In this document: piece after piece, positions 1,041 to 42,928 of the stretch
How positions within the stretch are numbered: position 1 is the stretch's first letter
Layout of the letters: each line of letters starts with the position of its first letter
NCBI RefSeq assembly: GCF_910592395.1
Contig: NC_088308.1
Location: 13,035,001 to 13,099,000, forward strand
Source of the DNA: Lineus longissimus
Lineage: Eukaryota > Nemertea > Pilidiophora > Heteronemertea > Lineidae
Length of the DNA: 64,000 bases
Direction of reading: 5' to 3'
The notes under the pieces: model-generated
The model's database searches: none
What the model was told of the DNA's origin: nothing
Seen by the model: only the letters and a program-made list of their open reading frames with translations
Program-made: the position numbers and the translations under genes

Positions 1041-2626
1041 CTATTTCTTCACAACGAGTGGGCACAATCTAGTAATCGGACGGATATACTCCTGGCCACC
1101 GCTCTTGACCTTCACAACACGAACGTGTCCGTCGGTTCCTGGAAAGAGCTCCGTTACCACTCCCAATGGCCATTTTCCACGAGGGTTGGTTTGATTGACC
1201 AGAATACACACATCATCGACTTGAACGTCTTGGACTTCTCTGTACCATTTTCCTCTTCGGTTTAGGTCTGTGAGTATCTCCTTCATCCAGCGTTTCCACA
1301 CGTCACAGATGAGCTGTTGGACATAGCGCCATCTATTCCGTGGGTTCACGACCAAGCTGTCCACTACTCGTGGTGCCAACTGTCCCCCAGCCTGACCGTA
1401 TATGAAATGGTTGGGCGTCAAGACGTTGGGATCATTGGGACTGTCACTGCAATAGCTTAAGGGTCGAGAGTTAAGCAATCCCTCGACTTCCACGACAGCT
1501 GTAAGAAGCTCTTCGTCAGTGATGCCCTTGTCCTTCAAGATGGCACTCAGCGCCCGCTTCGCTTGTTTCACCATGGATTCAAATAGACCCCCATGATGAG
1601 ATCCGGTGGGTGGGTTGAATTTCCATTCGATGCCGTCGTTTGCTGCTTGATCAACTATATTGCTCTGATCCATTGCCTGGACAAGTTCCTTCAACTCTCG
1701 GTTCGCCCCACAAAATTAGTTCCATTATCGGAGACGACAAACTCCGGTTTCCCGCGTCTCGCGACCATTCGGGAAAACGCATTCAGGAAGCTGCTTGTGT
1801 CGAGCGAATACGCGACTTCAAGGTGCACAGCTCTGCTAGTAGTGCAGGTAAACAGGCAGATATAGCGTTTCGCACTGGTCTTTCGACTAATCTTCACAAA
1901 AAACGGACCAGCGTAATCAACTCCACATCTACTGAAGGCTCGCACTAGGATTGTTGCTCGGAAATCAGGCAAAGGAGCCATCAGTTGCTGTCCTTTTATC
2001 TTTTTCATCAGCTTACATGTGTAGCATGTTCGCTCCCATCGTTTCACTTCTTCTCTACCGTGCACTATCCAGTACTTTGCACGGATGTCAGCCAATGTTC
2101 CATTCACTCCTCGCACATGGTGACCAAGCACATGGTAGTGTGCCACAACAAGCTGAGTGATGCGATGCTTGTTCGGCAGGATTACATGATGCTTGGTCTC
2201 GTAAGGTAGGCTGGACTTCTGGAGGCGACCTCCAACACGCATAACACCTTCGGCATCAAGGAAGGGTACCAATGGCTTTAGTCTTCCCCGAGCTGGTTCA
2301 CGTTTACTCAAATGGCTCAGATCCTCCGTGAACACCTGCTGGGCCTCTTTTATCCAGTACTGCTCAGCCTCCCTTAGTTCATCGACCCGAGATTTAACAG
2401 CACACCGCTTCAGTCTCTTTATAAAACGTATGACTAATGCTGTGACTCTCACCAACTGCAACCAACTCGGAAACTTGTCTGGATCGATGATGCTGTCAAC
2501 TCTCTGGGCCATGAACAGTACAGGAGAAGTCCGCATTTCTGTACTTGCTTCTGGGCTGCAACTTCCGACTTGGGTTCTCGGTCCTCCCCCTCGAGCAGAA
2601 ACCTGGGCCCAGCAAACCAAGGACAA
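1041..2626 (-). pseudogene. BEL pol: integrase region, two frames
   Basis: Carries the C-terminal half of the BEL polyprotein. From 2626 to 1691 there is an H-H-C-C zinc-binding module (HYHVLGHH, then CYTC), then the integrase core with the first Asp in GVDYAGPF and the second in VVSDNGTNF. The reading frame breaks close to 1705. From 1694 to 1041 another frame continues with the Glu-containing segment HHGGLFESMVKQ and the BEL C-terminal domain. The integrase inserts the reverse-transcribed copy into the genome. The break falls between the second and third catalytic residues, so no intact enzyme is encoded. Another frame change near 2520 separates this part from RNase H. Indels at these places could also be consensus errors of the assembly. 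Confidence 0.9.
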
Positions 2627-2892
2627 TCTTCGATCAACTCTGTCACTTGGATGCCTCGGGTTCCTAGATCAGCTGGGTTCTGGAGTCCGGGTACGTGTCG
2701 CCACTGCGATGGTGATGACTTCTCGTGGAGTTCTGCTACACGATTGGCGACAAATGGTTTATAATGACGTGACTTCCCATGAACCCAATGAACGACGTCC
2801 ATGGAGTCAGTCCAATATAAACTCTCGGAGACTGGACAATCTATGCTCCTGGCTATGACGTTGGCTAGACGCACTCCTGTAACTGCAGCCAT
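2449..2892 (-). pseudogene. BEL pol: RNase H C-terminal part
   Basis: A 147-codon open stretch holding the second half of BEL RNase H (LYWTDSMDVVHWVHG, then PADLGTRG). It follows the reverse transcriptase after a frame change near 2905, inside a short C run, where the upstream frame stops soon after entering the RNase H domain. Its own end is out of frame with the integrase part (break near 2520). Confidence 0.85.
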
Positions 2893-5800
2893 CAGCTCGA
2901 GCCGGGAATGCTAACGTTCTTCAGTGGAGCAACTTTAAACTTTGCAGCTACCATGCTGATCCCAATTTCTCCATCTGTATACTGGTACCTAAGATAGGCT
3001 ACTGCCCCGTAGGCGAGTCTCGAGGCATCTGTAAATGTATGTAGGGCCATCTTCACGATATCTTCAACTGGCCTGTTGCGATAACACCGAGGGATGTGAA
3101 TCTCGTTCACCCGCTGTAGCTCTCCTATCCACTGGTCAAGTCTAGTTTGGATATCATCTGGTAGGTCATCGTCCCATCCGATTCCACGTAACCAGCATTC
3201 TTGCAGAGCTATCTTGCCCCGGATGACAACAGGGGCCAAGAATTGGAACAGATCAAAGATGGTTGCATTACGACTCAGAATCTGTCTCTTCGTGGTAATC
3301 GTCTGCTCGGTACTGCTTAAGATGAAGGTAAACGTGTCCGAAGCTGCATCCCATTCAACACCAAGGGTCTTCACACTGGGAAGTACCGACTCTTCCAGAT
3401 TAACTCCAGATGCTTGCTCCGACTCGTCCAACCCTTCTAGAACAGCAAGTCTATTGCTGCACCAACGGCGGATTGTAAAACCAGCTGGTTTCAAAACGGC
3501 TTGTAGATCCTGGCGCATACGCCTGGCTTCATCATCATCTTCAAGGCTGTCGATTACGTCAACAATGTATATTGCTTTGAGAACAACCTCTGCTGCCTCC
3601 GGATACTGCTCTCGCATTGCCTCGGCTTGATGTTTTGTTACAAACTGCGCCAAAAACGGAGATGCTGCATCACCAAACACCAATCTGGATGCTTCATAAA
3701 CTTCAATGGGTGCTGTTGGATCGAGATGCCGCCACAACAGCCGGTGAAACTTCCTGTCCTTCTCCGCCATACTGACTTGATTAAACATCTCCTTTATATC
3801 TCCGATTAAGGCAACAGGCTTCAAGCGAAACTTCAGCAGGATCTCCAAGATATCTCGTTGCAGCTTCGGACCTGGGAACATCTTCTGGTTCAGACTTGTT
3901 CCTTCGTAGGCTGCTGCAGCATCATAAACGATGCGCACCTTCGTAGTTTGCTTATCATCCCGGATCACGGCAAAATGCGGCAGGTACCATCCTGGTTCTT
4001 GCGCTTTTTCCGATGATATCTTGGTGATGTATCCTTTCTCGACAGTCGCCTCAAATGCTTCTTTGTATCTTTTGGCTACTTCCGGTCTCCTCATCAGACT
4101 GGCTTCAAGTGATCTAAGTCTTCTTTCAGCCACTATTCTGTTATATTTTAAATCCGGAGGGTCTTCACGCCAAGGAATCCCAACTTCGAACCGGTCTGGT
4201 AACTTCCTTATCGAACTCTTAGTTTTCTCAATCACCATCTTGTCTTCTGGAGTATAGATGTCCTCATGAACTTCTCCAATGACGTCCTGGTCCCACAACT
4301 TTTGCAACTGCTGATCGGTTGACTCGTGTGTGGCATGAAAGCTCATCGTGAAGTTGGTGGTGGTCTGATGTACATTGATCAAGGGTAGAGGACCAACACA
4401 CGTCCAACCAAGCGGTGTTCTCCTTGCGACTGGCTCGCCGGGTTTTCCAATACGCTCCTCAAGGGCGATACCTAACTCTGGGTAGTCAGATCCTATCAAA
4501 ACATCAACAGTCTTCCTACCCGATGCTGTAGGAAACTCCAAATCAGCAATATGGTCAAACTTAGTCTTGTGGTGGTTCCAATTCTGTATCGGCAGCTTTC
4601 TGCACATGTCACTCATCGTCCAGATCTTCATCTTCCGAACCGTGCTGCCATCTATACTCTCAAGCTGAACTTCTACTTTCTGGCTGTCCAGTGACACACA
4701 GTCAGCAATTGAAGCAATCTTCAAATTCTCCTTAGTTCCACTTATTCCCAGAGCTGTTACGACATCCGCTCGAACATAAGACGTGTCAGATCCTTCATCC
4801 AATAGGGCATTTATCAGCACTCTCTTTCCTCCTGGACCAACTAACCACACTGGAACCGTCCGCAGCACAACCTGTATGGGTACATTAGGCTGAAAATCAC
4901 TGGTACCAAAGGAACTGTTGGCATTATTGGCAGGGTCGGCTTTTGACTTTGGTGACGGTCGGTCTTCATGAAGATGGAAATGGTGACTTTTACCACAGCC
5001 ATTGACATTGCATGTGTTCCCGCGGGGGCAGTTTTTACCCATATGATTTCCCGCCAAACATCTGTAACATAACCTCTTTTCCTTTGCTAGGCTCCATCGC
5101 CTTGGCACGGCCGCCGACTTCCAAACAGGACAGTCCAACAATCTGTGTGTGGATTCACAGATGTAGCATTTCATGTTGGCTTTCGCAAGGTTCTTGGCTT
5201 CACCTGTAGTGTGGGATCTAGCTTTCCATTGCACATAATCCTGTGGCTTTCCACCTGCGGTGCGACCATCCTTCTTTGAACAGTCTTGCTCCGACGGCTT
5301 GGTGACTCCAAATACGGGATCGTTTGCCTCTCGAGCGACACGTTGTAGGAAATTTACAAGTTCCTGTATCCCTGGATAAACTTTATCCTTCACCACTTTA
5401 TCTACTGCAAGCTTACGCCATCTGGACTTTAAAAACAGAGGTAGCCTCTCAACAATCTGTACGACCCTTGATCTCGTGTCGATTTCACCGATACAGTTCA
5501 TTGCTTGTAAGGTTTCACTACAGCTTGACACCTCATCAGCCAAATCTTGCAGAGCCGTAGAATCAGTCCCCTTTATCACTGGACCTTCCGTCACGTGCTT
5601 TACACAAGCTTCAGATATCTGGTACTCATTACCGAATCGCTCCTTCAACAACTCCAGGGCTCGGATATAGCCTTTACGTGGATCCATAATGGCACACGGT
5701 TGAATCACAGCTGCAGCTTTACCCTTACACAACTCAAACAGACAATTCAACTTGGCGCTATCATCAACGGTTGTGTCCCCAATGCAGCTATTGAAACGTC

Positions 5801-5993
5801 GCATAAACATCCAAAACTGTCTGGGATCTCCCGAAAATGTCATCATAGAGGTTTTCGGTAAAGCCATGGTATCCACCAATCGTTGTTGCCAATCACTGAC
5901 ATGACTGACCGACATGACTGACCTGGGTGTCGGTCTTGGGCTGACGCTGAGGAGATTTTGGCTCTCTCCTTGACAACTCTCGTGAAACTTCAA
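2892..5993 (-). pseudogene. BEL gag-protease-reverse transcriptase
   Basis: A long open stretch of 1,033 codons. Roughly from its start: DUF1759 gag domain (residues 45-200, FSGDPRQFWMF onward); two CCHC zinc knuckles (about 275-330); DUF1758 retropepsin with LLDEGSDTSYV (about 400); reverse transcriptase (about 650-850); and the first part of RNase H (TDASRLAYGA). The expected RT catalytic motif is altered: the sequence reads YIVDVIDS where the family has Tyr-x-Asp-Asp, so the first Asp is Val. The product would process gag, reverse-transcribe the RNA and degrade it. The gag N-terminus lies in another frame upstream (5893-6507), joined through a short tandem repeat near 5910. Confidence 0.92.
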
Positions 5994-6507
5994 CCGCGGC
6001 TAGCGAACTCGACTTGGGATGGGGTGAGATGTCACTCATATTCATCATAGGTAAGTGTACTCGGGGGGTGCTTGATGCATCAGGTGACTGCAATGGTGGC
6101 CTCTTAGACTCAGACTGCATAACTGGCGATGACGTCTTCATGGCCTTCTCTTGTGGATTCGAAAAAGAAGTAGGCCTATGTTCTATAGGCTCGGTATGCC
6201 CGGTCGATAACGGCATTGCCTGTGAAACATGCTGCTCATCATCCTGAGACCGTAACTTGGCTGGTGGTTGCACTGGCATGCAGTGCCGCAATTGAGCCGT
6301 AAGCATGGCCACCTCCCGTCGGCTCTTCTCTAACTCGGATTGCATCTTGTCCATAAAATCCATATAGTCGGTGGCTGCCACATCACTGAGCAGCTGTAGC
6401 CCTGAAAACGTAGGTGGCTTTCTCTGCTTGCTGCTTCTATCCCCAAGATATGGGGACGACATCCTTTGCATAGCCCGGGCAGAATCTGCAACGCCATCTT
6501 CCGCCAT
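5893..6507 (-). pseudogene. BEL gag N-terminal part
   Basis: Starts at an ATG (6507) and runs 204 codons. It contains a heptad-like segment (DKMQSELEKSRREVAMLTAQL), which could form a coiled coil, and a Pro/Ser-rich tail. The frame leaves the gag-pol frame inside an imperfect tandem repeat near 5900-5925. This may be a lesion, or a programmed shift; the repeat makes replication slippage plausible. It probably supplies the N-terminus of the gag-pol protein. Confidence 0.75.
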
Positions 6508-8557: not shown

Positions 8558-9923
8558 TTATATGATCTCTTGTCCAACGTGCTCATGCACATAGTTCCGT
8601 GCTGATAGGTATATATCAACCCCATAATCATTACTATCAGTTAATGGATTGATAAGTTCCGATAATTCTTCAACATCTAAAGCTGGAAGAAGTGTCTCTG
8701 GTATAACAATGTTAATTTCATCATGCACAATTTCGGGTATAGGACCTTCTGGATCAATGCCATATGTCATCAAATCAATTCCTACATCATCAGAATCATC
8801 AGAACAGCTATCAATCATACCATTTGTCCAAATCTGGATTAGGGTCCAGCTTCTCACTGCACGTAAACTATGATTGTTGTAGGCATTCATAAATTCAGTA
8901 AGACAATGATTTATGCGTGGTAAATACACAAAATGCAAACAAAAAATGTCGACCTCAGAATCAATGTCCAATTTGTCATTCCCTTCCATTTGGTAGAATA
9001 GTGAATAGAATGTCTGAATAACACTGTAGTACACATCTCGCCAAAGGCGTTCAATGCAGCGTTGTGTACTGATCTTCCAGCAATAAAACTTCCTCTGTTT
9101 TCACCTCTAAGTTGTTCCATGATTTCCCCCACCTGTACATTTTCAATGCCCCTATCTGCTCGAAGACGCGATGGAACACCGAAGCTCTCCACAGCCCGAA
9201 GAAATAAATTTGCAACTGTTTCTGCTTTGTTGTTAGTGCTACATTCCAGATACACTATTAATCTACTATGCCCATCAATTCCACCATGCGTTACTAAGCG
9301 CCACCGAACTAAGGCATGGTGGCCGTCTATATGCCACAAACTATTGGGTCCGCGAACATTGTACATCCTTCTTTGGGTCATAAGCCCCCAACGTAAACCT
9401 GAATTCACTGGGTCAAGATTTCGCAGATTGATCCTGACACGGTTGTGTTGGACAATTATTCCTCTGGACCTGAGGTGTCCATTCATCATTGTTACTCCGC
9501 AATGAGGATGGCTGTGGTATATCTCACGCATGGTGTCCAGGAGATCTTCATCTGTTATGATTGTATAGCGTTCCAAATGAATTCCTCTTTGTTGGAGCCT
9601 TCTCCAGAGGGTTGTACGGTGGATCATGAACATCCTTGCGATGGTTGTTAACTTGAAACCAAGATAGAAGAGATAAGATACTTGCTCCAGATCTATGTGA
9701 ACTCGTGGACGACCAGGCCCAACGAATGGCAATAACTCAATGTCTCCAGCACCTGGTATGAGGGCAGGCACAGCAGCATGTTGTCGTTTCTGCTGAAAAG
9801 TTGCTGAATGCACCTGCCATAGCATCTTCATTTCTTTCAGCACAGTTATAAGTATTACAACCTTCCCATGAGACCTTTGAACATTTCTGTGGTTGTCGGC
9901 ATTCACCTGCGGCTGAGGTCCAA
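8558..9923 (-). CDS. Integrase-core (rve/DDE) gene, exon 2, one frameshift
   Basis: Main exon of a spliced minus-strand gene. It opens after an acceptor (TTTGCAG, AG at 9925-9924). It contains a GRPR-type linker and helix-turn-helix (GRPRVHIDLEQ to TTLWRRLQQRG), then a retroviral-type integrase core with the first Asp in LWHIDGHH, a second conserved block GGIDGHSRL, and the second Asp in RADRGIEN. The Glu segment (IERLWRD) lies in the -1 frame, because a base appears to be missing near 9060. That frame then stays open to the stop at 8558. The family is widespread in invertebrate and fish genomes as integrase-domain proteins of transposon origin; I cannot say whether this copy is a transposon gene (IS3EU- or Ginger-like) or host-retained. 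With exon 1 the product would be about 565 residues. Confidence 0.75.
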
Positions 9924-10243
9924 CTGCAAATACAGAATAAAAAAGTACCATCAGAGATAGAGGTCAGAGGTTCCCTCCACCTTAAAATAAATACTAAAGT
10001 AACGTCCCCCAGAGGGTGGATACAAAAGGACAACATGCAATACAGGGCTTGAAAAAAAGGTCCAAGGACCTTGTGCTGACCTGGGTGAACATTCAAGGTA
10101 ACCCAATAGACAAAATGTCAATAAATGTTTTACATTAGTTGTAGAGGCACTTACAGTAATAAGTTCACTGTCTAAGCTCAAAAATGGAGCTCATTTTGGC
10201 ACTATTTTGCATTTTCAGCATTATTTACGCTATTTGACCTACA

Positions 10244-12306: not shown

Positions 12307-12612
12307 CATTGGCGACCAGTGCATGGCCATGCTGCTGGTCCTGAGGTGGCTGATCATCATCATCAGCCGGCGTAGCCGTAGGTCCACCGACGTGGTCATC
12401 AACATCAATAATATTGTCATTAATATTGTCAATAATAACGACTGGGTCAGATCCAAGTTCATGGCGAAACAGCGCATCTATCGATTCCAATGCGATTATA
12501 TAGGCTGTCAACCGATGAAGTAGACTGTAACCATCGATAAAGTCGCCTGCGTTGTACTTTTGCTGTAAATTTTCAACAAATACAGCTAATGATTCGAAGA
12601 ACTCTATCAGCA
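12307..12612 (-). CDS. Integrase-domain gene, exon 1 (3' portion)
   Basis: Coding from the insertion junction (AGCA at 12609-12612) to a good donor, AATG/GTGAGT, at 12307/12306. The peptide has an amphipathic helical start (LIEFFESLAVFVENLQQKY) and an acidic, Asp- and Gln-rich end (PADDDDQPPQDQQ). The open frame seems to run on into MITE A, but no ATG starts it there; the apparent first codon at 12688 is TTG inside the MITE. Bridging from 17676 across the inserted block gives a continuous frame with in-frame ATGs at 17704 and 17692. Together exon 1 is 331 nt, leaving one base, which matches exon 2. Confidence 0.7.
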
Positions 12613-13048
12613 GAGACAAGACCACAATTGATTTTTTAAGCCTTTTAGCAGTTAAATTGTCAATGTTTGACCGCGACGCATCAAACAACGCGTGGTGTTG
12701 TGAATCTGAAATTTAGATTATGTTATTCCGGAGAGTCGGGCAAGTAAATGGTGAAAAATAAAATGGTGATTGACCACGGAAATTTTTTGATAATCGACAA
12801 ATTAGACAGACTTTGATATTTCCACTCTTTTCAGCCAACTGGCAGAAAAAACTCAAAACACGCCCCCTATTACCCAATTAGCAAAATTCGAAATTAATTT
12901 TTTCATCAAATAATTTCTTTATATCTGTAGACTTGCCACAACAAATATTTTTTCAATACCTCTCCAAATATGTACTTGAGAGTTAAAAACATGAACTCGT
13001 CTAATTGATAGGCCTCGACCTATGAATATTCATTAGTGGTCTTGTCTC
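12613..13048 (+). mobile_element. MITE copy A (GAGACAAG family), AGCA duplication
   Basis: 436 bp, ending in the 13-bp inverted repeats GAGACAAGACCAC and GTGGTCTTGTCTC. Flanked on both sides by AGCA (12609-12612 and 13049-13052). It is visibly diverged from copies B and C in its left half, so it belongs to an older or different subfamily. Confidence 0.85.
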
Positions 13049-13052
13049 AGCA

Positions 13053-13484
13053 GAGACAAGACCACAATTGATTTTCCAAGCCATTTCCAGTTATTTAAAA
13101 TGCCTGCCATTAAAGAATGCGTGGAGCTGTGAAACTGAAATTCGGATATGATATACGGGTTAGTCTTGCGAGTAGCTGGTGCGATGGAAATTGGTGATTG
13201 ACCACGGAAATTTTTTTTTAAATTGACAAGTTTGACACAAGTGGACATTTTTACCCATTTCGGCCATTTTCACTCCAAATTTGAACCACCCCCCCTATGG
13301 CCAGGTTGTCAAAATTCAAAATTATTTTTTTTACCAAACAATTTATTTATATCTGTAGACTTGCCACAGCAAATATTTTTTCAATGCCTCTCCAAATATG
13401 TACTTGAGAGTAAAAAACATGCACTCGTCTAATAGATAGGCCTGGACCCTCCAACCTATGAATATTCATTAGTGGTCTTGTCTC
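13053..13484 (+). repeat. MITE copy B (left terminal repeat of the composite)
   Basis: 432 bp with the same GAGACAAGACCAC/GTGGTCTTGTCTC ends. Differs from copy C by three substitutions and one base in a C run. Confidence 0.9.
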
Positions 13485-14212
13485 AATGAAGAGGGATAAT
13501 CTTGAGATATCAATGAAATATGCCTTTTCCCAAGCATTTGAGATGTCTTGACTAACATAACCAAGTTTCATCAAAAATGAACTTGATTTGAGCGAGCTAT
13601 TAACGTTTTAAAATTTTGTCCGATACGGACAACCTACCTTATATTTCGTCTTCAAATTGTTTACAGACTGTCTTCAAGTTAAGCTCATTAACTCGTAGAA
13701 TTCTTAATCGAATGGTACCGAATCTTCGACAAATCACCAGTGGTCTACAGTCAATCTGAAATAGGAATTTGAAACAATTTTAATTCATGAGAAATATTCA
13801 AAAATTTCAATTTTTTGGAAAAAAGTTGTCTTTTTAAAGGATGTTCCAAGGTTGTGACAGTGGTATCATGCTGAAAATGTCAAAATTTCAAATCGAACAA
13901 TATTAACTTTGTCTGAAATTTGAAAAACAACAAATATATGATGCATTATAAGCATGGAAAGCTTGTTAGTAAGGTGTGAAATGAGAAAAAGATTAACCCA
14001 TATGTTATCTCCCTGTCTGTCACATCCAAGTCTGACACTTCCACAACAGCAACCATTGTCATCGCTATTGTCCTATCAACATCGACCCTTTTGTAATCTC
14101 TTGTCCTTTCTTGTGTATTTTCAGTCTGTTGAAGGAAGCATCCCGAAATAGACATCTCCTAGGAGTACGATTTTAAGCGAAGAAAGACAAGTATACGAAA
14201 AGACAAGACAAG
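13485..14212 (+). other. Upstream region of the transposase gene
   Basis: About 730 bp without a supported gene, moderately AT-rich, lying between repeat B and the transposase ATG. It presumably holds the promoter; no clear TATA or initiator call was made. Confidence 0.4.
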
Positions 14213-16417
14213 ATGAGGACAAAGGCGAGGAGATTGATAGGAAAACGGGGTTCTCCGAGGCGTGCTAGGGCATCGAATGCAGCAATGAGAACAATGTTCA
14301 AGAGCGGACACGTGCGGAGTGGAGGTGTCGAGGTGGTGAGCGACGACGAACGAGAAGTAGGCCTACAACCCACATGGAGACGACTCACGCCCCAGGAGTA
14401 CGGACAGGTCACAACGATGGGACACGACGGCAAAAGACACATACCGGATATTAATAACCGTACTGCCAAGAATGTCAACTTACTACGGCTGAACATGAAA
14501 GAAGACACTGATGATGAGATGGAGATACCAGATGAGACCATGGAGCATGAGCATGAGAGTTTCGTTGTTCAGACAACCAAACTGATGGATGTGCTCAACG
14601 ACGTTAACAGGGCCCATAGCGAATATCACGTGAACTGTCAGCCGATATTCAAATATGGAGAGGTGCGTAAGCAGGGGGTGTGTTGTTCAGTCACTGTGGT
14701 GTGTAAAAACTGTGGTTTTTATTCGAAATTGTATAAACTTTTTGAGGACATAGACACTGGCAAGCGCGGACGAAAAGCCGCTCTTCCAAATGTTGCATTA
14801 CAGATTGCGTTGCAGGACACAATGATTGGCAACGAGAGTATGAGTTACATACTGAGCATGATGGGAATCCCGCCCCCCTGTAGGAGTATCATGCAAAAGC
14901 AGGCAAATAAGGTTGGTGATGAAACAGTTAAAATGAATGTGGCCGATATGGCAGACATACGCGAGAACTTGAAAAGGATACTGCGCCTAAGAAATCAGGA
15001 CGACACAGGAATCAATGTCCAAGCTGATGGACGCTATAATAGTTTACACCTCACTTCGAGGAACAAGATGGGCCGTTGTGCGAGCACAATGACTGGATTA
15101 TGTGTTGAAAATGTGACAGATGAACACAAAATCATTGACATTGAGGTTAAAACAAAACTCTGCTGGATAGGGGCTGCAATGCGGGCGAAAGGTTTTGAAG
15201 TTAAATGTGGTGCCACTGGCACAAACGTTGACGAACGACACTCGAAGTGCACGGCTAACTTTCCTGAAGCAGATGCATTCAGAGAATATGATCTTGGGGT
15301 TGCATTTGCCGAGACTTTTGAGAAACAGGGCCTACATGTAGAACATTTGACTACAGATGGTGATTCCAGTTCATTCAAAGGGTTAACTGATGCAACAAAA
15401 AAGCTCTTCGGCGGCTTGTTCACGGTGAAGCATCAACTTGACTCTATACATTTGCATCAAGCCCAGACGCGTGCAGGACATAGAGCTGAATTCAGTAAAG
15501 GTATGTTCCCGGGACGTACTGCTGAGGAGAGAACACTGTTAAAAACAACGTTTCTGAATGATCTTAGGGTAAGGTCATCCAAGATTTTGCAATCTCTATT
15601 CAAGCGCTGCAACGGTGATCTTGACAGGATCATGGGATACCTGTATGACACTGTTGCCTGTGTTGTGAACTGTTATGGTGGTGACTGCACTGGTTGTCCA
15701 CAGAACGAATTCTCACTGTGCTCAGGCACAACTGGTTCTTGGTGGCACAAATCAACACGATGGTCATCTTACGGTGAGATTCCCAAGTTTAAAATGACAG
15801 TGATTGACAAGAACTTGGTACATCTCGTTTTGGAGGTATGCCTTAGTAAAGGAGCGTTGCAACAGCTGAGTCTTGGCGTGACAACCCAGGGGGTCGAGTC
15901 CAAGAATCGAGGTCTGTCGGCCAGCGATCCTAAGATTGTGACCAGGAGCAGGAACTCAACCCCTCGTATCCATTCAGCAGCCCACAGAATGAACCATAAC
16001 ATAGCCGAGAGCGGGCGACGGAAACTAAAGTGGTTCAACATCGAAGTCGATACTTGTTGCCGCCCAATGAAAGCACTGGACAGAATTGCAATGAACAGGC
16101 AGTACACAGTCAGGTACCAACGGAGTGCTAGACACCAGAAGTTAGCTGGTGTTTTGAAAAACATCAGGGCAACAGATTACTTCACCAAAAAGAAAAACAA
16201 AACCAGGGGTGGTGACTACAAGAAACATGTGATGATAACAATGCCGGACTTGCGAAGGAAGGCTGTCAAGAAGGCTGTTGCACGACGAGACAGACCGCCT
16301 GTACCAGAGTGGAAATGTCTCCACCCAAACAGCAGAAACTATGACCACTCCTACTTTCGGCGATCCTTCAAGATCCAACCAGCCACCAAGACATCCAAGA
16401 GGTTGCCATCGCGGTAA
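14213..16417 (+). CDS. Mutator-like transposase (PF20700-type)
   Basis: A complete 734-codon ORF from an ATG at 14213. Basic N-terminus; zinc-binding CxxC (VCKNCGF, residues 164-167); a conserved block VQADGRYNS (Asp272); the central TTDGDSSSFKG (Asp382, Asp384); KHQLDSIH (410-413); a Cys cluster NCYGGDCTGC (487-495); and GVESKNRGLS (Glu562). These match the invertebrate family annotated as Mutator-like transposase domain and fit a DDE-type active site, though the exact triad is inferred. The gene has no frameshift or stop over 2.2 kb, so it is either recent or under selection. It should cut and join DNA in the nucleus. Its 3' end overlaps the convergent endonuclease frame by about 50 bp. Flanked by MITE repeats B and C. 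Confidence 0.85.
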   Translation: MRTKARRLIGKRGSPRRARASNAAMRTMFKSGHVRSGGVEVVSDDEREVGLQPTWRRLTPQEYGQVTTMGHDGKRHIPDINNRTAKNVNLLRLNMKEDTDDEMEIPDETMEHEHESFVVQTTKLMDVLNDVNRAHSEYHVNCQPIFKYGEVRKQGVCCSVTVVCKNCGFYSKLYKLFEDIDTGKRGRKAALPNVALQIALQDTMIGNESMSYILSMMGIPPPCRSIMQKQANKVGDETVKMNVADMADIRENLKRILRLRNQDDTGINVQADGRYNSLHLTSRNKMGRCASTMTGLCVENVTDEHKIIDIEVKTKLCWIGAAMRAKGFEVKCGATGTNVDERHSKCTANFPEADAFREYDLGVAFAETFEKQGLHVEHLTTDGDSSSFKGLTDATKKLFGGLFTVKHQLDSIHLHQAQTRAGHRAEFSKGMFPGRTAEERTLLKTTFLNDLRVRSSKILQSLFKRCNGDLDRIMGYLYDTVACVVNCYGGDCTGCPQNEFSLCSGTTGSWWHKSTRWSSYGEIPKFKMTVIDKNLVHLVLEVCLSKGALQQLSLGVTTQGVESKNRGLSASDPKIVTRSRNSTPRIHSAAHRMNHNIAESGRRKLKWFNIEVDTCCRPMKALDRIAMNRQYTVRYQRSARHQKLAGVLKNIRATDYFTKKKNKTRGGDYKKHVMITMPDLRRKAVKKAVARRDRPPVPEWKCLHPNSRNYDHSYFRRSFKIQPATKTSKRLPSR

Positions 16418-16961
16418 GAAAACTTTCAAATGTCAATTCAATATAATGATATTTTCTTTCAACTTCAACATATAGCTTACCAGGAAAAATGCATTTAGGG
16501 CGGTTGCCATGGCCTGCACAGACTTTCTTGGCATTGCACCTTTTTCTACTTTGATTGACCCTTCCTCTTTCTATTGTCAAGTGCTCGACTTTCACGCACA
16601 GAGGATTATGACAAAGATGACTTATATGATAACCTGCGCCAGTTTTGAATTTCAATTCATCATGGTCACACAAAAACATTGCCCGGTGTGCCGTCATTGT
16701 GACCGGCTTATCTAAAAAACTTACTTTAACAAACCCGTATGTTACCCCCCTCTTTTTTTGTTTAGCCCCCTTCCAATTCAAACAAAAACCATTACTTTTA
16801 GTCTTTGCTAATATTCTTGCTCGTAATTCAGATACTTTTCTCTTGAATTCACCTGCTGAAATAAAAAAATTAGTGAAAGCTTGGTACCCTGCCACCCAGC
16901 GTGCTCTGTGCCCGACACCTCCCAAAATGAAAATAACATGCAAAACAATCAACACTTTCAT
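16368..16961 (-). CDS. His-Me finger (HNH-like) endonuclease, zf-His_Me_endon type
   Basis: A 197-codon frame convergent with and slightly overlapping the transposase gene. Residues 113-127 read ISHLCHNPLCVKVEH, followed by Asn136 and Cys142, Cys148 and Cys157. This is the catalytic His plus zinc-binding pattern of the PF05551 family, related to the homing endonuclease I-PpoI. The N-terminal 15 residues are hydrophobic and may not be genuine; an acceptor-like CACAG lies near residue 20, so the first exon could be elsewhere. As the only other gene inside the composite unit, it may nick or cut DNA to help excision or target choice. That role is inference. Confidence 0.75.
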   Translation of the reverse strand: MKVLIVLHVIFILGGVGHRARWVAGYQAFTNFFISAGEFKRKVSELRARILAKTKSNGFCLNWKGAKQKKRGVTYGFVKVSFLDKPVTMTAHRAMFLCDHDELKFKTGAGYHISHLCHNPLCVKVEHLTIERGRVNQSRKRCNAKKVCAGHGNRPKCIFPGKLYVEVERKYHYIELTFESFLTAMATSWMSWWLVGS

Positions 16962-17244
16962 TACTATTCACAATTGATGATTGTTATGAAACATATCTAG
17001 CCCAAAAAAGTAGAAAAATTTGAAATTATTTGAAATTTTTTGAAAATTTCAATTTTTGGCATTTTCACTTAAAAGCCCTGTAGGCCAGGGGGGGTTAAAT
17101 TTGAGAATTTTCTTTTTTTCCACATTTTCCAATTTCAATGATATGTCCACACATTCTCAACACATTTCAGCCAATTCAAACGGTTTTTGTGGATTTCAGA
17201 GCTCATTTACTATTTTTGACCTGTAACCCAAAACCCTCTAAATA

Positions 17245-17675
17245 GAGACAAGACCACAATTGATTTTCAAAGCCATTTCCAGTTATTTAAAATGCCTGCC
17301 ATTAAAGAATGCGTGGAGCTGTGAAACTGAAATTCGGATATGATATACGGGTTAGTCTTGCGAGTAACTGGTGCGATGGAAATTGGTGATTGACCACGGA
17401 AATTTTTTTTTAAATTGACAAGTTTGACACAAGTGGACATTTTTACCCATTTCGGCCATTTTCACTCCAAATTTGAACCACCCCCCTATGGCCAGGTTGT
17501 CAAAATTCAAAATTATTTTTTTTACCAAACAATTTATTTATATCTGTAGACTTGCCACAGCAAATATTTTTTCAATACCTCTCCAAATATGTACTTGAGA
17601 GTAAAAAACATGCACTCGTCTAATAGATAGGCCTGGACCCTCCAACCTATGAATATTCATTAGTGGTCTTGTCTC
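17245..17675 (+). repeat. MITE copy C (right terminal repeat of the composite)
   Basis: 431 bp, about 99% identical to copy B in the same orientation. Followed directly by AGCA at 17676-17679. The 280 bp before it (16962-17244) are non-coding. Confidence 0.9.
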
Positions 17676-17704
17676 AGCAAAACGTCTCCCATGGGCGCAG
17701 CCAT
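17676..17704 (-). CDS. Integrase-domain gene, exon 1 (start segment)
   Basis: Minus-strand ATG at 17704 with a second in-frame ATG at 17692. The frame runs to the insertion junction and continues in frame at 12612 when the inserted block and one AGCA copy are ignored. This places the true start of the integrase-domain gene on the far side of the 5-kb insertion. A reverse CCAAT (ATTGG on the minus strand, 17730-17734) lies just upstream. Because of the inserted block the gene cannot produce its normal first exon here. Confidence 0.65.
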
Positions 17705-17734: not shown

Positions 17735-17859
17735 CAGAGCCGTCGTTTCGTTTTTACCCACAATTCCGTTTTCGCATATATATTTAAAATTTATAAATAA
17801 ATTTTTCATGAGGTGACATATTTATTTTCTATCCATGACATATATTAGATATCATAAAA

Positions 17860-17922
17860 ATATATATGGAATATCGCAAATATATATTGGATATCGCATA
17901 TATATATGGGATATCGCATATA
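17860..17922. repeat. TATATGGGATATCGCATA satellite tract, left of Tigger
   Basis: Repeats of GGATATCGCATATATA with variants. The same repeat continues at 23683-23720 on the other side of the Tigger element, so the transposon entered this tract. Confidence 0.8.
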
Positions 17923-18328
17923 TACTGTCTTCTCCCACTTAACCGAGCGCGGCTGAATCGTAAAATGACTAAGTCCAAATGAATAGGCCGATTTTACTGG
18001 TGGCAGGCGAACATTAGAAAGAACAGCCACAGCTGATAATTGACTCCCTTTTCGTGGGGAATGCCAATGCCTTCCACGTAAGTGGATAAAAGACATGAAC
18101 ATTGACATGGGGTAGTCCTGTACTGAATGAATGAATACAATACAACTAGCGTCCTCATTTTATGCCTATAGTGTTCGTTGACCAGAAATTTCTAATCTTG
18201 GGTCTATTATAAATCCAGCTTCATGGGTCTGCAGAATGTCCCAATAAAGAAGTCTTGCTGTTAACGAATAAATTAAAGAAAAGATTTCCTTATCAATTTG
18301 CCAATCAATGTTATTATCCAAACGGGAT

Positions 18329-18859
18329 TTACACGTCATCATCAAAAACATCATCATCCTCTTCTCCTTCCGAAAACTCAATCCCCTCAACAAACTGCTC
18401 AAGCTCATCATTTACCATCTCTACCCCCTCCCCGACTTCGTCATCGTCCTCAGTAACTAGGCCACTGGCTCTCCAACCGTTCATAATCGTCTGTTGTGTG
18501 ACCCTTTCCCAGCCGAGGCTGATCATCCTGACCACATCCCGCCTAGTGATCCGCTCACAATGTCCTTGATCATCGGTGCGGCCGATTTTCCACACTTTCC
18601 AAATGGTCCTCAGGTGACACTTGAAGCTCCTGTTTACGGTCAAGTCCAAGGGCTGCAGCAGCGAAGTACATCGTCCTGGGATAAAAGTGTCTGTCCCATT
18701 CTCTGCGTTGATTGCATCACGAAATTGCTGATTTCGATGCGCCGGATACCTGTCTAAAAATAACAGGAATGTGGCCCCTGCTACAAATGGCACAATCAGG
18801 GCCTGCAACCACTCGATTAGCGACTGGTGTCGGGCCCAACCCTGTGGACTACCAGTTAC
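18329..18859 (-). pseudogene. Tigger transposase, last exon
   Basis: Begins after acceptor TTTTTCCAG (AG at 18861-18860). Encodes the C-terminal half of the DDE_1 domain: SPQGWARHQSLIEWL, a catalytic Asp in LFLDRYPAHR, FIPGRCTSLLQPLD, and an acidic tail (SEGEEDDDVFDDDV) that ends at 18329. It joins the 22402-19092 exon, whose donor GTGAGT is at 19091-19086. The final exon itself is undamaged. Confidence 0.82.
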
Positions 18860-19384
18860 CTGGAAAAATAAAGAACAAGTATGAACATTTACATTACTTT
18901 TCTGAACAGTCAGACACGCACAATGTTTTGGTTCCATCCATGACAAACCTATAATAATTTTAGTCATAGAAGTTCTGATTTTCCTAAAAAATACTACCAT
19001 TAACTAGAATGACCGTCAATGACAACACTGATGACGTCAGGTACATGTCCTGTACTACAAGCACGGACTTGTCTTCTATGCCAATACTCACTCGCACATT
19101 GGCTCATATGAATAAAAACGGAGCATTTGCTTTTACTCCAATTTTGAAGCATTTACTTGTATCTGTATGAATAAAAGTGTAGCAAATGCTTAAAAAAGGA
19201 AGATTTTACTACTCAGGAAGCAAATGCTTTTTAGCATTTAGTATTTGCTCCGGAGTGAAGTGAATGCTTGATTTGTCATGAATAAAGGGAAGCATAATCT
19301 ATTCACTCCGTAGTATATGCTTTGAATTTTGAAGACTGCCCCAGACGTGTCTTCGAATTTGTAGTGAAAGGTTGGCTGTCTACC

Positions 19385-20413
19385 ATGGCTGCTTTTATGC
19401 ATGTTCGGCAGGAAAAATTGTACATGAAGCGGAAAACGTGCCGTCCGGGAAAATATTGTGCCTTCTATCGCTTTGACGAGGAGAATGTTCAATGGATTTC
19501 GGACCATTTTGTGCCATATTCGGAGGAGACACGGGGTGGTCGACTTTGTGGAAAAGAACAAATGGAAATTTTCCTTAGGTACTTGGCAGACCCTGGACAC
19601 CAACTTGGCGTCGGAGAAGACAAGGGAGTCCACCAAACGACGGTTTCAAAAACATTTTCCAAAGTGCTTAGCCACGTTATAGAGAAGGCCGACTTGTGGA
19701 TTAAATTTCCCGTTACAATTGCGGATGTTCACCATGCTCAGCAGCTTTGGCAGGAGGAGAAGCAGATTCCTGGTACGGTTGGGGCCCTGGACTGTACGCA
19801 CGTACAGATTCTGAAACCTGGTATAAGAGGTGGCCATGGAGATGAGTATATCAACAGGAAAGGAGCCGCTTCCATAAACGTGCAAGCAACATGCGATGCG
19901 AAAGAACGGTTTACAAGCGTTGATGCTAATTGGCCGGGATCCGTTCACGATAGCCGAATATTGAAGAATTCACATGTTGCTGTAACGATGGTTAATTCGC
20001 GACACAGAGGCTTGCTGTTAGGTGATGAGGGCTACGCCATCGCCCCATGGCTTCTCACACCCTACAAAAATCCACTGCTTCCGGCCGAGAGAACCTTCAA
20101 TAACATCCACGCGAGGGAAAGGGTCGTCATCGAAAGGTGCTTTGGCCAGTTGAAAAAAAGATTTCCAATCTTACAAGGTCGTGTGAGACTGGCACTCCAC
20201 AAGGTGCCTAGCGTCATCGTCGCATGCATCATGCTCCATAACGTCGCGAAATACCTGAATGATCCTCATGACAACTTCCCCGAGTTTGATGAAGATAGCG
20301 ATAGTGAAGATGACGATGATGATGATGATGAAGATGTAGATAGGAGAATTCGTCAACGCGGACAGGATAAACGCCGAGCGATAGCCGATTTCCTGAATAA
20401 TGCCCAAGACTAG
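19385..20413 (+). CDS. Harbinger transposase (DDE_Tnp_4)
   Basis: 342 codons from the ATG at 19385, which has a strong context (ACCATGG); the frame is open further upstream but with no earlier ATG. The catalytic triad is visible: Asp136 (GALDCTHV), Asp189 (GSVHDSRI) and Glu250 (VIERCFGQLKKRF). GDEGYAIAPWLLTPY and IMLHNVAKY are also typical. A highly acidic stretch (DSEDDDDDDDEDVD) precedes the basic tail. The enzyme cuts the transposon out and inserts it at a 3-bp target. It works with the Myb-like partner encoded downstream on the opposite strand, which in this superfamily is needed for nuclear import and end recognition. No lesion seen. Confidence 0.93.
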   Translation: MAAFMHVRQEKLYMKRKTCRPGKYCAFYRFDEENVQWISDHFVPYSEETRGGRLCGKEQMEIFLRYLADPGHQLGVGEDKGVHQTTVSKTFSKVLSHVIEKADLWIKFPVTIADVHHAQQLWQEEKQIPGTVGALDCTHVQILKPGIRGGHGDEYINRKGAASINVQATCDAKERFTSVDANWPGSVHDSRILKNSHVAVTMVNSRHRGLLLGDEGYAIAPWLLTPYKNPLLPAERTFNNIHARERVVIERCFGQLKKRFPILQGRVRLALHKVPSVIVACIMLHNVAKYLNDPHDNFPEFDEDSDSEDDDDDDDEDVDRRIRQRGQDKRRAIADFLNNAQD

Positions 20414-25784: not shown

Positions 25785-28700
25785 TTGCAAATGATTTGTT
25801 GCCTCCCTGTTTTGCACAGGGAGGCAAACGGACGTATTCATAAACGCATTTCTCAGGAATGTGATAGTCTAACTGACGCGAAGAACGCTCTTAAGTATCA
25901 CTTTGAAGTTCAAGTTCTATTCAGCAAAGAAGTCGATGTCGTGGCAAATGATGGATCCATTATCGAGGGACAACATGAGAAACGCACATCGGAACCCTGG
26001 TTTTGCACCAATACAAAACAAGTTTTCTATAAGAGCCAATTGGAAGACTTGTCACAGACAGATTTTCAAGAAATCATCTCGAAATGCGAGTCCTATCTAC
26101 ACGAAGGTTCGGGGTGGGTTTTTGAACATGTGAACGCGTTGAGATTAACGGTGGCACAATTTGAGCCCCTGAGGGGTGGCACTTCGCATCCACACCCTTT
26201 CTTACCCTCGGCGGTGAGATATAAACGCGCTTGTATTCAGACGAACATTGATTACGGAAATGACGATAAATGTTTTTTGTTCTGTATCGCGGCCCACTCA
26301 GAACGCCTGGCAGGAGGTCGCATCAGATCGGACAGGCAGTTTGACATGATTTCATGGGAAAGACGTACATAGCTCGATTTGAGTAATATTTCGTATCCAA
26401 CTAGCATTGGTCAGATTTCCACCTTCAAACGACGGAACAACCTCTCCATTTACGTTTTTCGTTGGCTTTCGAACGAGAGTCATGAAGTTGCTGGCACAGC
26501 CGGACGTCATGCTGTTCCGTTGCAAGTACTGCATATTTCAGCAAACAGGAGATCAATTCCGCAAGAGAAGCATATTGACTTGTTTACTTTTTTCTGATCT
26601 CAAATCTGAGTAGGTTAATCGCCAACGGAGCTAGTGGTCGCCACGGGAAATAATTCGTTTGCAGATCGTGTTTGACCTGCTATTCCTCAAAGAGTAAAAA
26701 ACGTGCTCATGAAAGATGTTGTCTAGATACGGGCCAAGTGTACACCTTTCCAAGGAAAGGCCAAATGAAATTCGACAATTTCAAAGCCGGGACGGCACCT
26801 GATAATATATGATTTTGAAACTTGTCTTACGCCATGCGAATCAACTCTGAGTGATGGTTCAAGCCGCCATATGCCCATCGCGGTAGCGGGAAAACGTCTC
26901 TGCGTCAATCCCGATTACAATTCTTCCCTCTTCACCTACGTGGGCTCCGATTGTGTAAAGAAATTTCTCGAATGGCTCAATGAACAGATCGAGGAAGCGC
27001 ACATTATCGATTTGCATTGTTCAAAAGACAGTCTTGAACATATGTCTTCGCGTGATTGGAAGAAGTTTGTCTCGCAGCAGCATTGCGAGATGTGTGGCAT
27101 TGAATTCACTATAGGCGTGAAAAAGTGCATCGACCATTCTCACTTGCAAGCGGATCGGATGCGATACGTGCTCTGTAATCGTTGCAACTTGACTTATGCT
27201 TCGGAAAGGGAATTACAGATCAGATGTTTGGCGCATAATGCCACGAGATATGACAATCACCTTTTTGTAGAGGAATTGGCAAAACAAGATGGAGAATCGA
27301 AAAAGTTTCGAATATTGCCTAAAAACACAGAGCACTACTTGGTCATATATTGTCAAACGTTAGTCTTCCTGGATAGTTTTCAATTCTTGCCCTCGTCTTT
27401 AGCAAATCTAGTGGAATTGATGAAAAGCAAGACTAGCACTATTGTTGACCCGGAAAGTAGGATGAAGCAGAGCCAGAGCGCATTTCCTCTCCTCTCCGAA
27501 TACGTGAAAGGATCGAGTGAAATGTACGATCTTTTGTTGCGCAAGGGTGTCTTTTGCTACGAATATTTGGACAGGCCATCAAAACTTCAAGAGAGACAGC
27601 TTCCGCCGGTCGAGGCATTTTTCGATTCGCTAAAAAAACAACCCATTTCATCGGAGGATTACGAGCATGCAACACAGGTATGGCGAACAATGAACTGCAA
27701 GACCCTTGGTGATTATCTTGTAGTCTATCTCCAAACAGACGTTTTACTACTAGCCGATTGTTTTGAGAAATTTCGTGCCATGTCCATGAAACATTTTCAA
27801 TTAGATCCAGGAAAATATATATCTGCCCCTCGCCATGCTCAAAATGACAAGAGTTCATATAGACTTGATAGAAGACCTGGAGCAAGATCTGTTTGTCAAA
27901 AAAGGCATTCGTGGAGGTGTCGCTTCCATTTTCCAACGACGGGCCCACATATCTTTTGACGATGATGATGATGTTGAAGAGAAGGGGGTATTTTCAGGAG
28001 AAGCAGACAAGAAGAGTGGCGCCAGATATTTGCCCTCGACGCGACGAATCTCTACGGCTACTCCCTCAGTCAAGATTTACCGCACGGAAACTATCGCTGG
28101 ATCGAGGTTGACGACCCGAACGAATTTGATGTTTTGTCTTTGTCAGACGATAGCACTACAGCATACATACTGGAGGTGGACCTCGAATATCCTACTTGTC
28201 TACACGATTCGCACAATGACTTTCCTTTAGCGCCAGAGAAACTGTGCATATGCCCTTCGCAGTGGAGTCCACTAATGCATGTTTTGGCGGGAAAACTAAT
28301 GGATACCTCACAAATACGAAGTGCCGCCACCGGAGAAAAACTGATTCCTCATCTTGGACCGAGATTCTAAAATACCTTGGTACCGTAAAGTCAACTTTTA
28401 AATGGAAAATGCATAAGCCTCGTTCTGAGAGCGGAGTGTTTTGGACACGCAACCAAGATGCTCTACCAAAGTTCCCTCGGGTTGCACTAAAATGTGGAAC
28501 CATGCACACGTCACGTCAATGGAATTTCAGCTCACTTCAGAAGTTTGAGGCTCTTAAAACACTGCTTCAAACACAAATCAGTCAAGGAAGCATCAACCAC
28601 CCTAAGTTTTTTAATGAGCACTACACATATTTGCCGAGAAAAACGCTCCAAATAGCCCATTTGCGCGGATTTTAGCATCACTTGAGCGAGCCGATGCGGA

Positions 28701-29990
28701 CTTCCTATGCGCGCTGTACAAAATGTACATGTCTCATTTTCTGTAACGTTGCCGTAACATAATGTAAACAATGGCGCTACCGGCGCTCCGGCCGGGCCGG
28801 CGATGGATGGAATTTGCCAAATTCGCACATATTCAAGTTATTTTCGTGGCCTATCTTTTTAAGTTTGAGGTATTTTAGAATAGAAATTGAACCCTCGGCT
28901 TCGGACCTTGGTTGAGTTACCAAGACACTCTCGGGTGGAGCTAAAATTTCGTCCAAACCCTCGCCTGTCGGCTCGGGTTTGGACTGTATTTTAGCTCCAC
29001 CCTCGAGTGTCTTGGTAACTCAACCAAGGTCCTCCGCCTCGGGTTCAATTCCTTAAACAAATTACTTTGTCTATCTGAAAAACCTGCTATATTATCTTCA
29101 GCTGGGCATGACGCTGAGCAAAGTACATAGGAATCTGGCTTTCGATCAGTCGCCCTGGATGAAAGATTTCGTCAGCTTCTGCACGGGAAGGCAGAGGAAG
29201 GCCGCGGCAAACAATCCCTTTGAATCTGACTTTGTGAAAAAAGCAATTAATTCTTGCTACGGGAAATTCCTCCAAGACAAAACAAAGCACATCAATATGA
29301 GTCTAGTGTCGGACAAGAGAAAATTCCTAACAAAAACGAGCAAACCGAATTTCAAGTCAGTAACCATTTACAATAGGAAACTGGTAGGCATACAAATGAA
29401 CCCCCGCAGCATACTTCTGGATCGTCCCATCACAGCGGGAATGGTCTGTCTCGAAACAAGCAAAATGAAATTGTACAAAATGCACTATGACTTCAATAAG
29501 CCATTGTACGGGGACCGGTGCCACCTGTTGATGACGGACACGGATAGCCTGCTGTATTTCTTAGAAGAATATGAGGGGAACGTGGACGAGGACTTCTTCG
29601 CGAACCGACGCTATTTCGATCTGTCTAATTATCCGAAAGACTCGCCCTACTTCTGCGAAACGAACAAAAAACTTCGAGGTACTTTCAAGCGAGAGGATGC
29701 GTGCGATCCCATTGTGGACTTTGTTGGTTTGCGTGCCAAGACATCGGTCGGAGGCAGTCACCAGCAAGGCCAAGGGTTTGCCCAGATGCGTTATGCAAAG
29801 CATTGGCTTTGAGCAGTACGAAGATGAACACATCTTCACAAGTGGCAAGTACGTGTAATTTTAAATCGATTAGGTCGAAAAAACTAACGCAAGAGAAAAA
29901 GCTTTGTCACCATTGGACACGAAACGCTGGCTGTGCGAAGATAACATTCACACATTCGCCTTTGGACACTACCGCATCAAAAATGAGTAA
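25785..29990 (+). pseudogene. Polinton A DNA polymerase B (protein-primed)
   Basis: Pieces in the expected order: N-terminal block FLPSAVRYKRACIQTN with DDKCFLFCIAAH (26.2 kb), exonuclease Exo I YDFETCLTP (26.81 kb), a zinc/HNH-like strip with CEMCGIEF and DHSH (27.1 kb), NATRYDNHLFVEEL (27.24 kb), VYLQTDVLLLADCFE (27.72 kb), a palm block near 28.04-28.24 kb (DLPHGNYRWIE then ILEVDLEYP), and YYLQLG (29.09 kb) with the catalytic MTDTDSLLY (29.53 kb). It ends NIHTFAFGHYRIKNE at 29990. Frame changes occur near 26.37, 27.83, 28.0 and 29.8 kb, and about 690 bp is inserted after 28367. The enzyme would replicate the element from a terminal-protein primer; this copy cannot. Confidence 0.85.
28368..29055. 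mobile_element. Insertion in Polinton A polymerase, with perfect foldback
   Basis: Interrupts the polymerase between PHLGPR and YFVYLKNLLYY. The first 500 bp are unrecognised and non-coding. The last part, 28885-29050, is a near-perfect hairpin with arms of about 75 bp starting GAACCCTCGG, bordered by AATT on both sides (28885-28888 and 29047-29050), a possible 4-bp duplication. There may be two nested insertions. Confidence 0.65.
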
Positions 29991-30438
29991 AGAAGTCAGG
30001 GAATCACATTGTGACAAGGAAATATCCATAAGTGTATTAGACGCACCTCGCCGCAACATGAGGTCGACAAAGAATACTAGAAGTACAAAAAACATACGCT
30101 GCACCATAGCAGTCGGCAAACGGTGCAACGTTGATGTGACGAGATTTAAAGGTGACACCTGGTTTCACCTCTATTTGAAGAATAATCGTCAAAAGTGCAT
30201 CAGTTTACTTGGGGAAGACATCGCAGATTTTTTTATGAACGTGGAGAAATTGAAGAAGGCTAGTTACAAGGTTTTCAAAGCAGAACAGCAAAATGGAGAA
30301 GGCGATGGAAGAGGAAAGGGGCAACAGCAGATAGCAGAGCTTCGTCGTAGACAAAACGAAGAAAAAAATGTGGAGGATGAGTTTTTTCAGGCCGGCGATG
30401 CTAAAAAAGCTCCCCAAACGAGAGGAAGAAAAAGGTAG
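29983..30438 (+). CDS. Small basic protein, possibly PC4-like
   Basis: 151 codons from an ATG that overlaps the polymerase stop by 8 nt (ATGAGTAA). The N-terminus has a tandem of RSTKN; then VTRFKGDTWFHLYLKNN with KCISLLGEDIADFF, which recalls the beta-sheet plus helix of the PC4 single-strand-DNA-binding fold; then a Lys/Gln/Glu-rich tail. Intact. Position directly after the polymerase would suit a replication cofactor, but the PC4 assignment is only by eye. Confidence 0.5.
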   Translation: MSKEVRESHCDKEISISVLDAPRRNMRSTKNTRSTKNIRCTIAVGKRCNVDVTRFKGDTWFHLYLKNNRQKCISLLGEDIADFFMNVEKLKKASYKVFKAEQQNGEGDGRGKGQQQIAELRRRQNEEKNVEDEFFQAGDAKKAPQTRGRKR

Positions 30439-32638: not shown

Positions 32639-33823
32639 CAGCATATATAACAAGCGCATCATGTATCCATTAATAATGTGTATCTCTTCTTGTAAAATGA
32701 ATATTAATTGTAGAACTTGTTGGCTGAATGCATGTAAAGACCATACTCGAGCAAGTATAGATTTTTAAATTGAGTAATTTATTTTTTTTCTGACGAACTG
32801 ATTAGCAATTTCCTAAAAAAAAAATTAACGAATGAGATAGTTGCACGCGTGTGGTTTTTAACGGTTTATTTATAGCTCATCTGAAACCCCGATATAGGTT
32901 TCATTGCTTACTATGCAACTTATGTAAATGTCAAAAGAGTAAGACCAATGAAGAAAATGAAATGTTTCTTACCTTTGCTGTTGTGAAGGATGCAGTCGAT
33001 CAGACGCTAAAATTGTCGCGCTAAATATCGGGAGATTGTTCCCGCAAAACATCGGAGCGTTTTAGGAAAAAGCAACGCCGCATCAGACATCCTTCATTGC
33101 TGCATTCTAGACTCAGAATAACAGTAGCTTCATCATCAGTTTCATTATAATGGTGCTTATTAAAACACAAAATATTGAATGCAAATATATATACGCCATT
33201 GTATACTCTTATAGACCTTCATAAGAAAGGTATACTCTTGTATAACAAAGATTAATGGAAAATGCCGACCAACTTTATATCATAAGCATAGCCAACTTGA
33301 GACAACTATTTTCATGGCGGGTGAGCTTCTCCCGAAAAACATAGAAAAAAATGCGCCATGTACGGCAGGCATCTTCCATTGAGTGTTGATTTTAGAATCG
33401 GAATATATTAAGCATTCTATAGGGCGTTTATAAAAATAAAACGCGTATACCCGATCGGTGAACATGCACGTAGACCAGGAAATGAAGAAGAAGATGTATT
33501 CCTCTATATAGTGAGCCAAGCAAACGCTCAGCCCGGGCACACATACAATGTACATGAGCTATCGTCATCAAAAACCCAATCAGGGAAACAGAATAAAAAT
33601 GCATAAGCATGTCTAAAACTGCATTTTTTGTCACGAGGTCGGACGCGCCTGGGTCTTTAAGCATATAAAAATGTTATGCATGAAGAAAAATCTAACAAAA
33701 CGATGTGAAAAGACAACAGAAATAAAAGTGTTTTTCATATCACAAATACGTCGTATATGAGTTATTCTTTCTTCGTGTGCATGTCAAAATATCCACCCTT
33801 CCATCAGGAAAGGGGTGACGCAA
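32639..33823. other. AT-rich region, no gene
   Basis: About 1.2 kb of AT-rich sequence after the protease. No terminal inverted repeat of the Polinton was found here. Short repeats of GTATACTC/GAGTATAC are visible near 33205-33240. Confidence 0.5.
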
Positions 33824-34370
33824 GAGAGTTGTCCTGTCCTCCTCTTCCCGCGCTATACGAACCCGGCCACCATGCGAGACGAAGAGGACAGACTTCGTTG
33901 CTTTGGAGCTAAACGGACATTGAGGAGACGGGGCCCTAAAATGTGGCGACGAGTCGAGGCAATTCGCGTCATAATTCTAGCTAAGATGAGCAATCAAAGA
34001 CTAGGATTGGAGAGTTGTCCTGTCCTCCTCTTCCCGCGCTATACGAACCCGGCCACCATGCGAGACGAAGAGGACAGACCTCGTTGCTTTGGAGCTAAAC
34101 GGACATTGAGGAGACGGGACCCCTAAAATGTGGCGACGAGTCGAGGCAATTCGCGTCATAATTCTAGCTAAGATGAGCAATCAAAGACTAGGATTGGAGA
34201 GTTGTCCTGTCCTCCTCTTCCCGCGCTATACGAACCCGGCCACCATGCGAGACGAAGAGGACAGACCTCGTTGCTTTGGAGCTAAACGGACATTGAGGAG
34301 ACGGGACCCCTAAAATGTGGCGACGAGTCGAGGCAATTCGCGTCATAATTTTAGCTAGGATGAGCAGTCT
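33824..34370. repeat. Three tandem copies of a 186-187-bp unit
   Basis: Units start GAGAGTTGTCCTGTCC at 33824, 34010 and 34197. The second and third are almost identical; the first differs at a few positions, including one base that changes the period from 186 to 187. Each copy contains a short open stretch on the plus strand (TNPATMRDEEDRPRCFG) that is interrupted in every copy, so a repeat protein is unlikely. Confidence 0.88.
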
Positions 34371-42074: not shown

Positions 42075-42094
42075 TACGTTTTCTCATCTCATGA

Positions 42095-42904: not shown

Positions 42905-42928
42905 CTGAATGTCAAAAACAATACATTC

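Follow-up and report, generated by a model that had tools for sequence, protein, structure and literature searches.

Apparently intact KolobokP element abutting a diverged solo repeat in Lineus longissimus

Two nearly identical direct repeats enclose a transposase frame and a nuclease frame in the stretch of Lineus longissimus DNA analysed here (64,000 nucleotides in all, called the window below), which raises the question of whether the assembly is a single transposon and, if it is, to which group it belongs. The initial annotation had taken it for one composite unit, made of two MITEs around a Mutator-like transposase and a nuclease in an architecture that it did not recognise, and had explained the matching 4-bp outer flanks by movement of the unit in one piece. 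Movement as one unit fits the evidence, and the structure is the one published for KolobokP, in which a transposase and a homing-type nuclease lie between two long direct repeats (LTDRs) (PMC9587614). We conclude, with a probability of about 0.95, that the unit is an apparently intact, probably young autonomous KolobokP element that would transpose as a block by means of its 13-bp terminal inverted repeats (TIRs), with AGCA as its target-site duplication (TSD). The coordinates of its parts and of the sequences beside it are collected in Table 1.

Table 1. Features of the KolobokP unit and of the adjoining solo repeat (positions are those of the window; INT, interior of the unit)
Feature	Position	Strand	Length	Basis
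AGCA, left TSD copy	12609-12612			flank comparison
Solo LTDR (A)	12613-13048	+	436 bp	diverged from B/C, perfect 13-bp TIR, own AGCA/AGCA flanks
AGCA that is the right flank of A and the left flank of B, in the middle of the TIR-4bp-TIR junction	13049-13052			flank comparison
KolobokP unit LTDR-INT-LTDR	13053-17675	+	4,623 bp	direct repeats, internal genes, outer AGCA/AGCA
Left LTDR (B)	13053-13484	+	432 bp	alignment to C, perfect 13-bp TIR
INT	13485-17244	+	3,760 bp	AATG and AATA as tips, AGAGGG/CCCTCT at each end and in register
DDD/E transposase	14213-16417	+	734 aa, open reading frame	PF20700 9.5e-53
zf-His_Me (I-PpoI-like) nuclease	16368-16961	-	197 aa	PF05551 1.9e-13
Right LTDR (C)	17245-17675	+	431 bp	alignment to B
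AGCA, right TSD copy	17676-17679			flank comparison

Pairwise alignment of the left repeat (B) with the right repeat (C) gave 428 identical bases among the 431 aligned (99.3%) and a single 1-base gap, in agreement with the two copies of ~430 bp, 99% identical and in the same orientation, that had been described before. Each terminates in a perfect 13-bp inverted repeat (GAGACAAGACCAC..GTGGTCTTGTCTC), as had also been described, and the INT between them has the length of 3.76 kb given for it. In addition, a third copy (A) lies to the left of B, and its ends carry this perfect 13-bp inverted repeat as well. The repeat search and the alignments placed all three copies in one orientation, and A was found to be ~80% identical to both B (340/423 aligned bases, 22 gap columns) and C (341/422 aligned bases, 23 gap columns). 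The exact 13-mer occurs six times in the whole window, and all six occurrences are the ends of A, B and C. When up to 3 mismatches were allowed, 20 matches were found in the window versus 14.9 expected; 17 of 100 shuffles reached 20, and thus the inexact matches are no more than chance gives.

The flanks of the repeats bear on whether B and C arrived together or singly. B is flanked by AGCA/AATG and C by AATA/AGCA, neither of which is a matching pair, whereas the outer flanks of the B and C pair do match (AGCA/AGCA), as the initial annotation had pointed out. Two 4-mers taken from the window agree by chance with a probability of 0.0046, and a 4-bp match of this kind is by itself a modest signal. 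The accompanying remark that the individual repeats have unmatched flanks is correct for B and C and fails for A, which has AGCA on both sides, the AGCA on its right being at the same time the left flank of B. Had two independent MITE insertions come by chance to flank an unrelated autonomous transposon, each repeat would be expected to carry a TSD of its own, as only A does. The complete inverted ends on each repeat, by which each could move alone, would suit such an assembly, as would the published view that LTDRs of KolobokP are mobile singly (PMC9587614) and the AGAGGG found in register at both ends of INT; an in-register run of at least 6 within the first 20 bases occurred in 75 of 20,000 random pairs. 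However, the 99.3% identity of B and C and their common orientation speak against it, as does the recurrence of the gene pair and layout in a published lineage (PMC9587614). We consider a chance pair of MITEs very improbable and rejected it on the unmatched flanks of B and C and the matched outer pair. B and C are instead read as the LTDRs of the element itself, and the term MITE is given up for them.

Kojima and Bao reported KolobokP in 2022, with representatives in seven animal phyla (PMC9587614), and 228 families of it have been published. The architecture with this nuclease partner, which had seemed new at first sight, is thus already known, and the present unit is a further member. All five of the defining features of KolobokP that are testable here fit, the transposase motifs by eye only. 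The lengths of B and C are near the ~450 bp of one of the two published LTDR classes (~450 or ~660 bp), each LTDR has its own short TIR, for which 11-18 bp is reported in oyster, and the termini read GA..TC in the alignment, i.e. the 5'-RR / YY-3' type of the group (PMC9587614). The outer AGCA, with the inner flanks unmatched, agrees with the short TSDs of KolobokP (3-5 bp; 3-4 or 4-5 bp as given for solo LTDRs), and the length of the whole unit falls among those of the autonomous oyster families (4,022-4,748 bp) (PMC9587614). Furthermore, the published layout, with the transposase on the direct strand and the nuclease downstream on the opposite strand (PMC9587614), is found here too, in that INT carries a DDD/E transposase and, downstream on the complementary strand, an I-PpoI-like His-Me nuclease. 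Classical Kolobok, outside KolobokP, differs in its target: the TSD given for Kolobok in general is TTAA, whereas that of the unit is AGCA, and no strong target preference is reported for KolobokP (PMC9587614). Solo LTDRs elsewhere in the genome are another trait of the group; within the window, one diverged solo LTDR was seen, copy A. A difference from the elements described in the main text of PMC9587614 is the position of this copy, which borders the unit with a common TSD between them.

The transposase had been annotated as intact and Mutator-like. Its uninterrupted frame and its match to PF20700 (Table 1) bear out the first part of that description, and the second part gives way: 'Mutator' is the Pfam name for the domain and not the class of the element, and we rejected it as a label because the motifs, read by eye, fit Kolobok. 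A candidate triad of D272, D382 (or D384) and E562, the motif DSIH at 410-413, the set C317/C332/H343/C346 and cysteines between 483 and 503 were all assigned by eye, and on this assignment they appear to match the description of Kolobok in PMC9587614. The transposase had no match up to E 1 among PDB sequences and none among phage records; the search for its relatives returned one pattern stretch in viral contigs and eight in genome contigs, and none of these was confirmed.

The second gene had been called a convergent zf-His_Me endonuclease, and the PF05551 match of the minus-strand frame agrees with this (Table 1). By their coordinates the transposase and nuclease frames are convergent and their 3' ends overlap by 50 bp; the remaining Pfam matches in the scan of the two proteins were below the cut-offs. 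Against PDB up to E 10, the nuclease matched four sequences, all of them I-PpoI and all weakly (E 0.021 to 0.76). All eight of the I-PpoI positions that were checked are present in the nuclease at identical spacing, and we take C100, C105 and C125 to be among them. The five others are the I-PpoI residues S97, H98, H110, E114 and N119 given in PMC9587614. On the minus strand, a splice-acceptor-like TTTTTTTATTTCAG (16856-16869) lies within the nuclease frame just before the residues AGEFK, and thus the first ~34 residues may be non-coding and the N-terminus may be supplied from another exon by splicing. The search for nuclease relatives in viral contigs gave one pattern stretch, which was not confirmed, and the 23-bp terminal sequence of the unit was not found in viral contigs either. 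These collections were viral, bacterial and archaeal, and near records may have been left out of them; for an animal element, absence from them carries little weight. The Rfam scan gave no matches in the window, and NCBIfam gave nothing above cut-off and one match far below it. The two structures that were predicted, each from a single sequence, had mean pLDDT values of 37.1 and 32.6, which are too low for use.

Most likely, the KolobokP transposase would recognise the 13-bp TIRs that end each LTDR and would move the LTDR-INT-LTDR block entire, duplicating 4 bp of the target, in this case AGCA; single LTDRs would presumably be mobile by the same transposase. The I-PpoI-like nuclease probably cuts within or at the ends of the LTDRs, which would lead to unequal crossover or to integration of a circle. 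Cutting of LTDRs or of abutted ends with these outcomes is the role proposed for the KolobokP nuclease (PMC9587614). The same authors likened the excision footprints of KolobokP to those of copy-out-paste-in elements and left open how paired repeats are maintained (PMC9587614). Because its genes are open and its repeats nearly identical, the copy described here would suit activity tests.

A and the unit lie 4 bp apart and meet as TIR-AGCA-TIR, and two insertions apparently used one 4-bp target. In the simplest history, A inserted first, with AGCA as its TSD, and the block landed later in exactly that AGCA beside the diverged solo LTDR; the reverse order is possible, and A is probably the earlier and older insertion. 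A single origin for all three repeats would make them remnants of one multimer, (LTDR-INT)n-LTDR, from which the INT between A and B was lost. Multimers are common in KolobokP, in which arrays with shared LTDRs are described (PMC9587614), and all three copies of AGCA are identical. However, A is much less similar to B and C than these are to each other (~80% versus 99.3%), and between A and B there is only the 4-bp target and no remnant of INT. On these two grounds we rejected the multimer as unlikely and retain two separate insertions.

The arrival of the unit beside A could be a coincidence at a random AGCA, and we regard this as quite possible, though short of an even chance. The junction is a single case, and no strong target preference is reported for KolobokP (PMC9587614). 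On the other hand, in a large genome a randomly placed insertion would seem unlikely to strike the exact 4 bp against a resident end, and the 13-bp TIR of A is identical to those of B and C despite ~20% divergence. Alternatively, KolobokP might preferentially insert against the TIR ends of resident LTDRs, as bacterial IS3/IS30 can; by analogy and from one case, we put this forward as a tentative and rather doubtful proposal. The published account of KolobokP discusses abutted TIRs with a spacer for a supposed circle, and no chromosomal LTDR-TSD-LTDR junction was found in its main text (PMC9587614). If end-targeting were true, it would yield near-palindromic TIR-4bp-TIR junctions, a possible substrate of the I-PpoI-like nuclease, and it would help to explain how paired repeats and arrays are rebuilt after the loss of single LTDRs. 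A junction with a diverged LTDR makes end-targeted insertion directly countable in any KolobokP-rich genome.

To our knowledge, KolobokP is the sole eukaryotic transposon group that resembles a bacterial composite transposon and also carries a homing-type nuclease, and we know of no nuclease partner in the bacterial copy-out-paste-in IS elements. In IS26 the transposase lies inside the IS, whereas in KolobokP it lies between the repeats. According to PMC7986276, the pseudo-compound transposons of IS26 (IS6 family) likewise have direct repeats around other DNA, and IS26 favours sites beside another copy. The same paper describes circles of bacterial copy-out-paste-in elements (IS3, IS30) with ends a few bases apart, and members of the IS3 and IS30 families that are able to insert into inverted-repeat ends; the circle junction of IS3/IS30/IS911 resembles TIR-4bp-TIR, and such a junction would also result if an element inserted into an inverted-repeat end (PMC7986276). 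These elements are bacterial and have no LTDRs, and the mechanism considered for KolobokP here is drawn from one site.

Within the LTDRs, near-palindromes were listed 14 times for A, 3 times for B and 3 times for C, many of them being registers of one site; in C, the only copy that was shuffled, they were not in excess of shuffles (mean 2.7, sd 2.4). A 12-bp perfect palindrome, ATGAATATTCAT, was seen by eye near the right TIR inside a listed near-palindromic site and is retained in A, B and C; as a candidate nuclease target it is only a lead. In addition, A and C are not conserved evenly along their length. Two widths were tried: the best stretch of 100 columns, near the right end, holds 96 identities, a value reached by 1 of 10,000 column shuffles, and the best stretch of 50 columns holds 49, reached by 112 of 10,000. 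This pattern may reflect gene conversion, or it may mark a promoter or a binding site.

Several other elements lie in the window. Close by on the right side of the unit are an AT-rich tandem repeat of period 20 (17840-17924), a DDE_1 transposase frame on the minus strand (18329-19003) and a DDE_Tnp_4 transposase frame on the plus strand (19298-20413). Two minus-strand frames (8911-9963 and 45810-46940) have the integrase core PF24764 (rva_4), and large minus-strand frames at 1041-5999 look by eye like a BEL/Pao-type retroelement. Several frames occupy 26769-30438, two of which have DNA_pol_B_2 matches, the Pfam cut-off being passed by one of them and not by the other; we take these frames to be Polinton-like from their look. 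At 33748-34369, a unit of ~187 bp is repeated in tandem, with three copies and a partial fourth. Finally, in the element at 40316-45142, three open frames (41190-44179) are enclosed by long inverted arms (419 bp, 99% complementary), to which further arm segments add; the outermost tips were read by eye as TAGTCCATGGGCCA, and none of the three frames matched Pfam at E 0.001.
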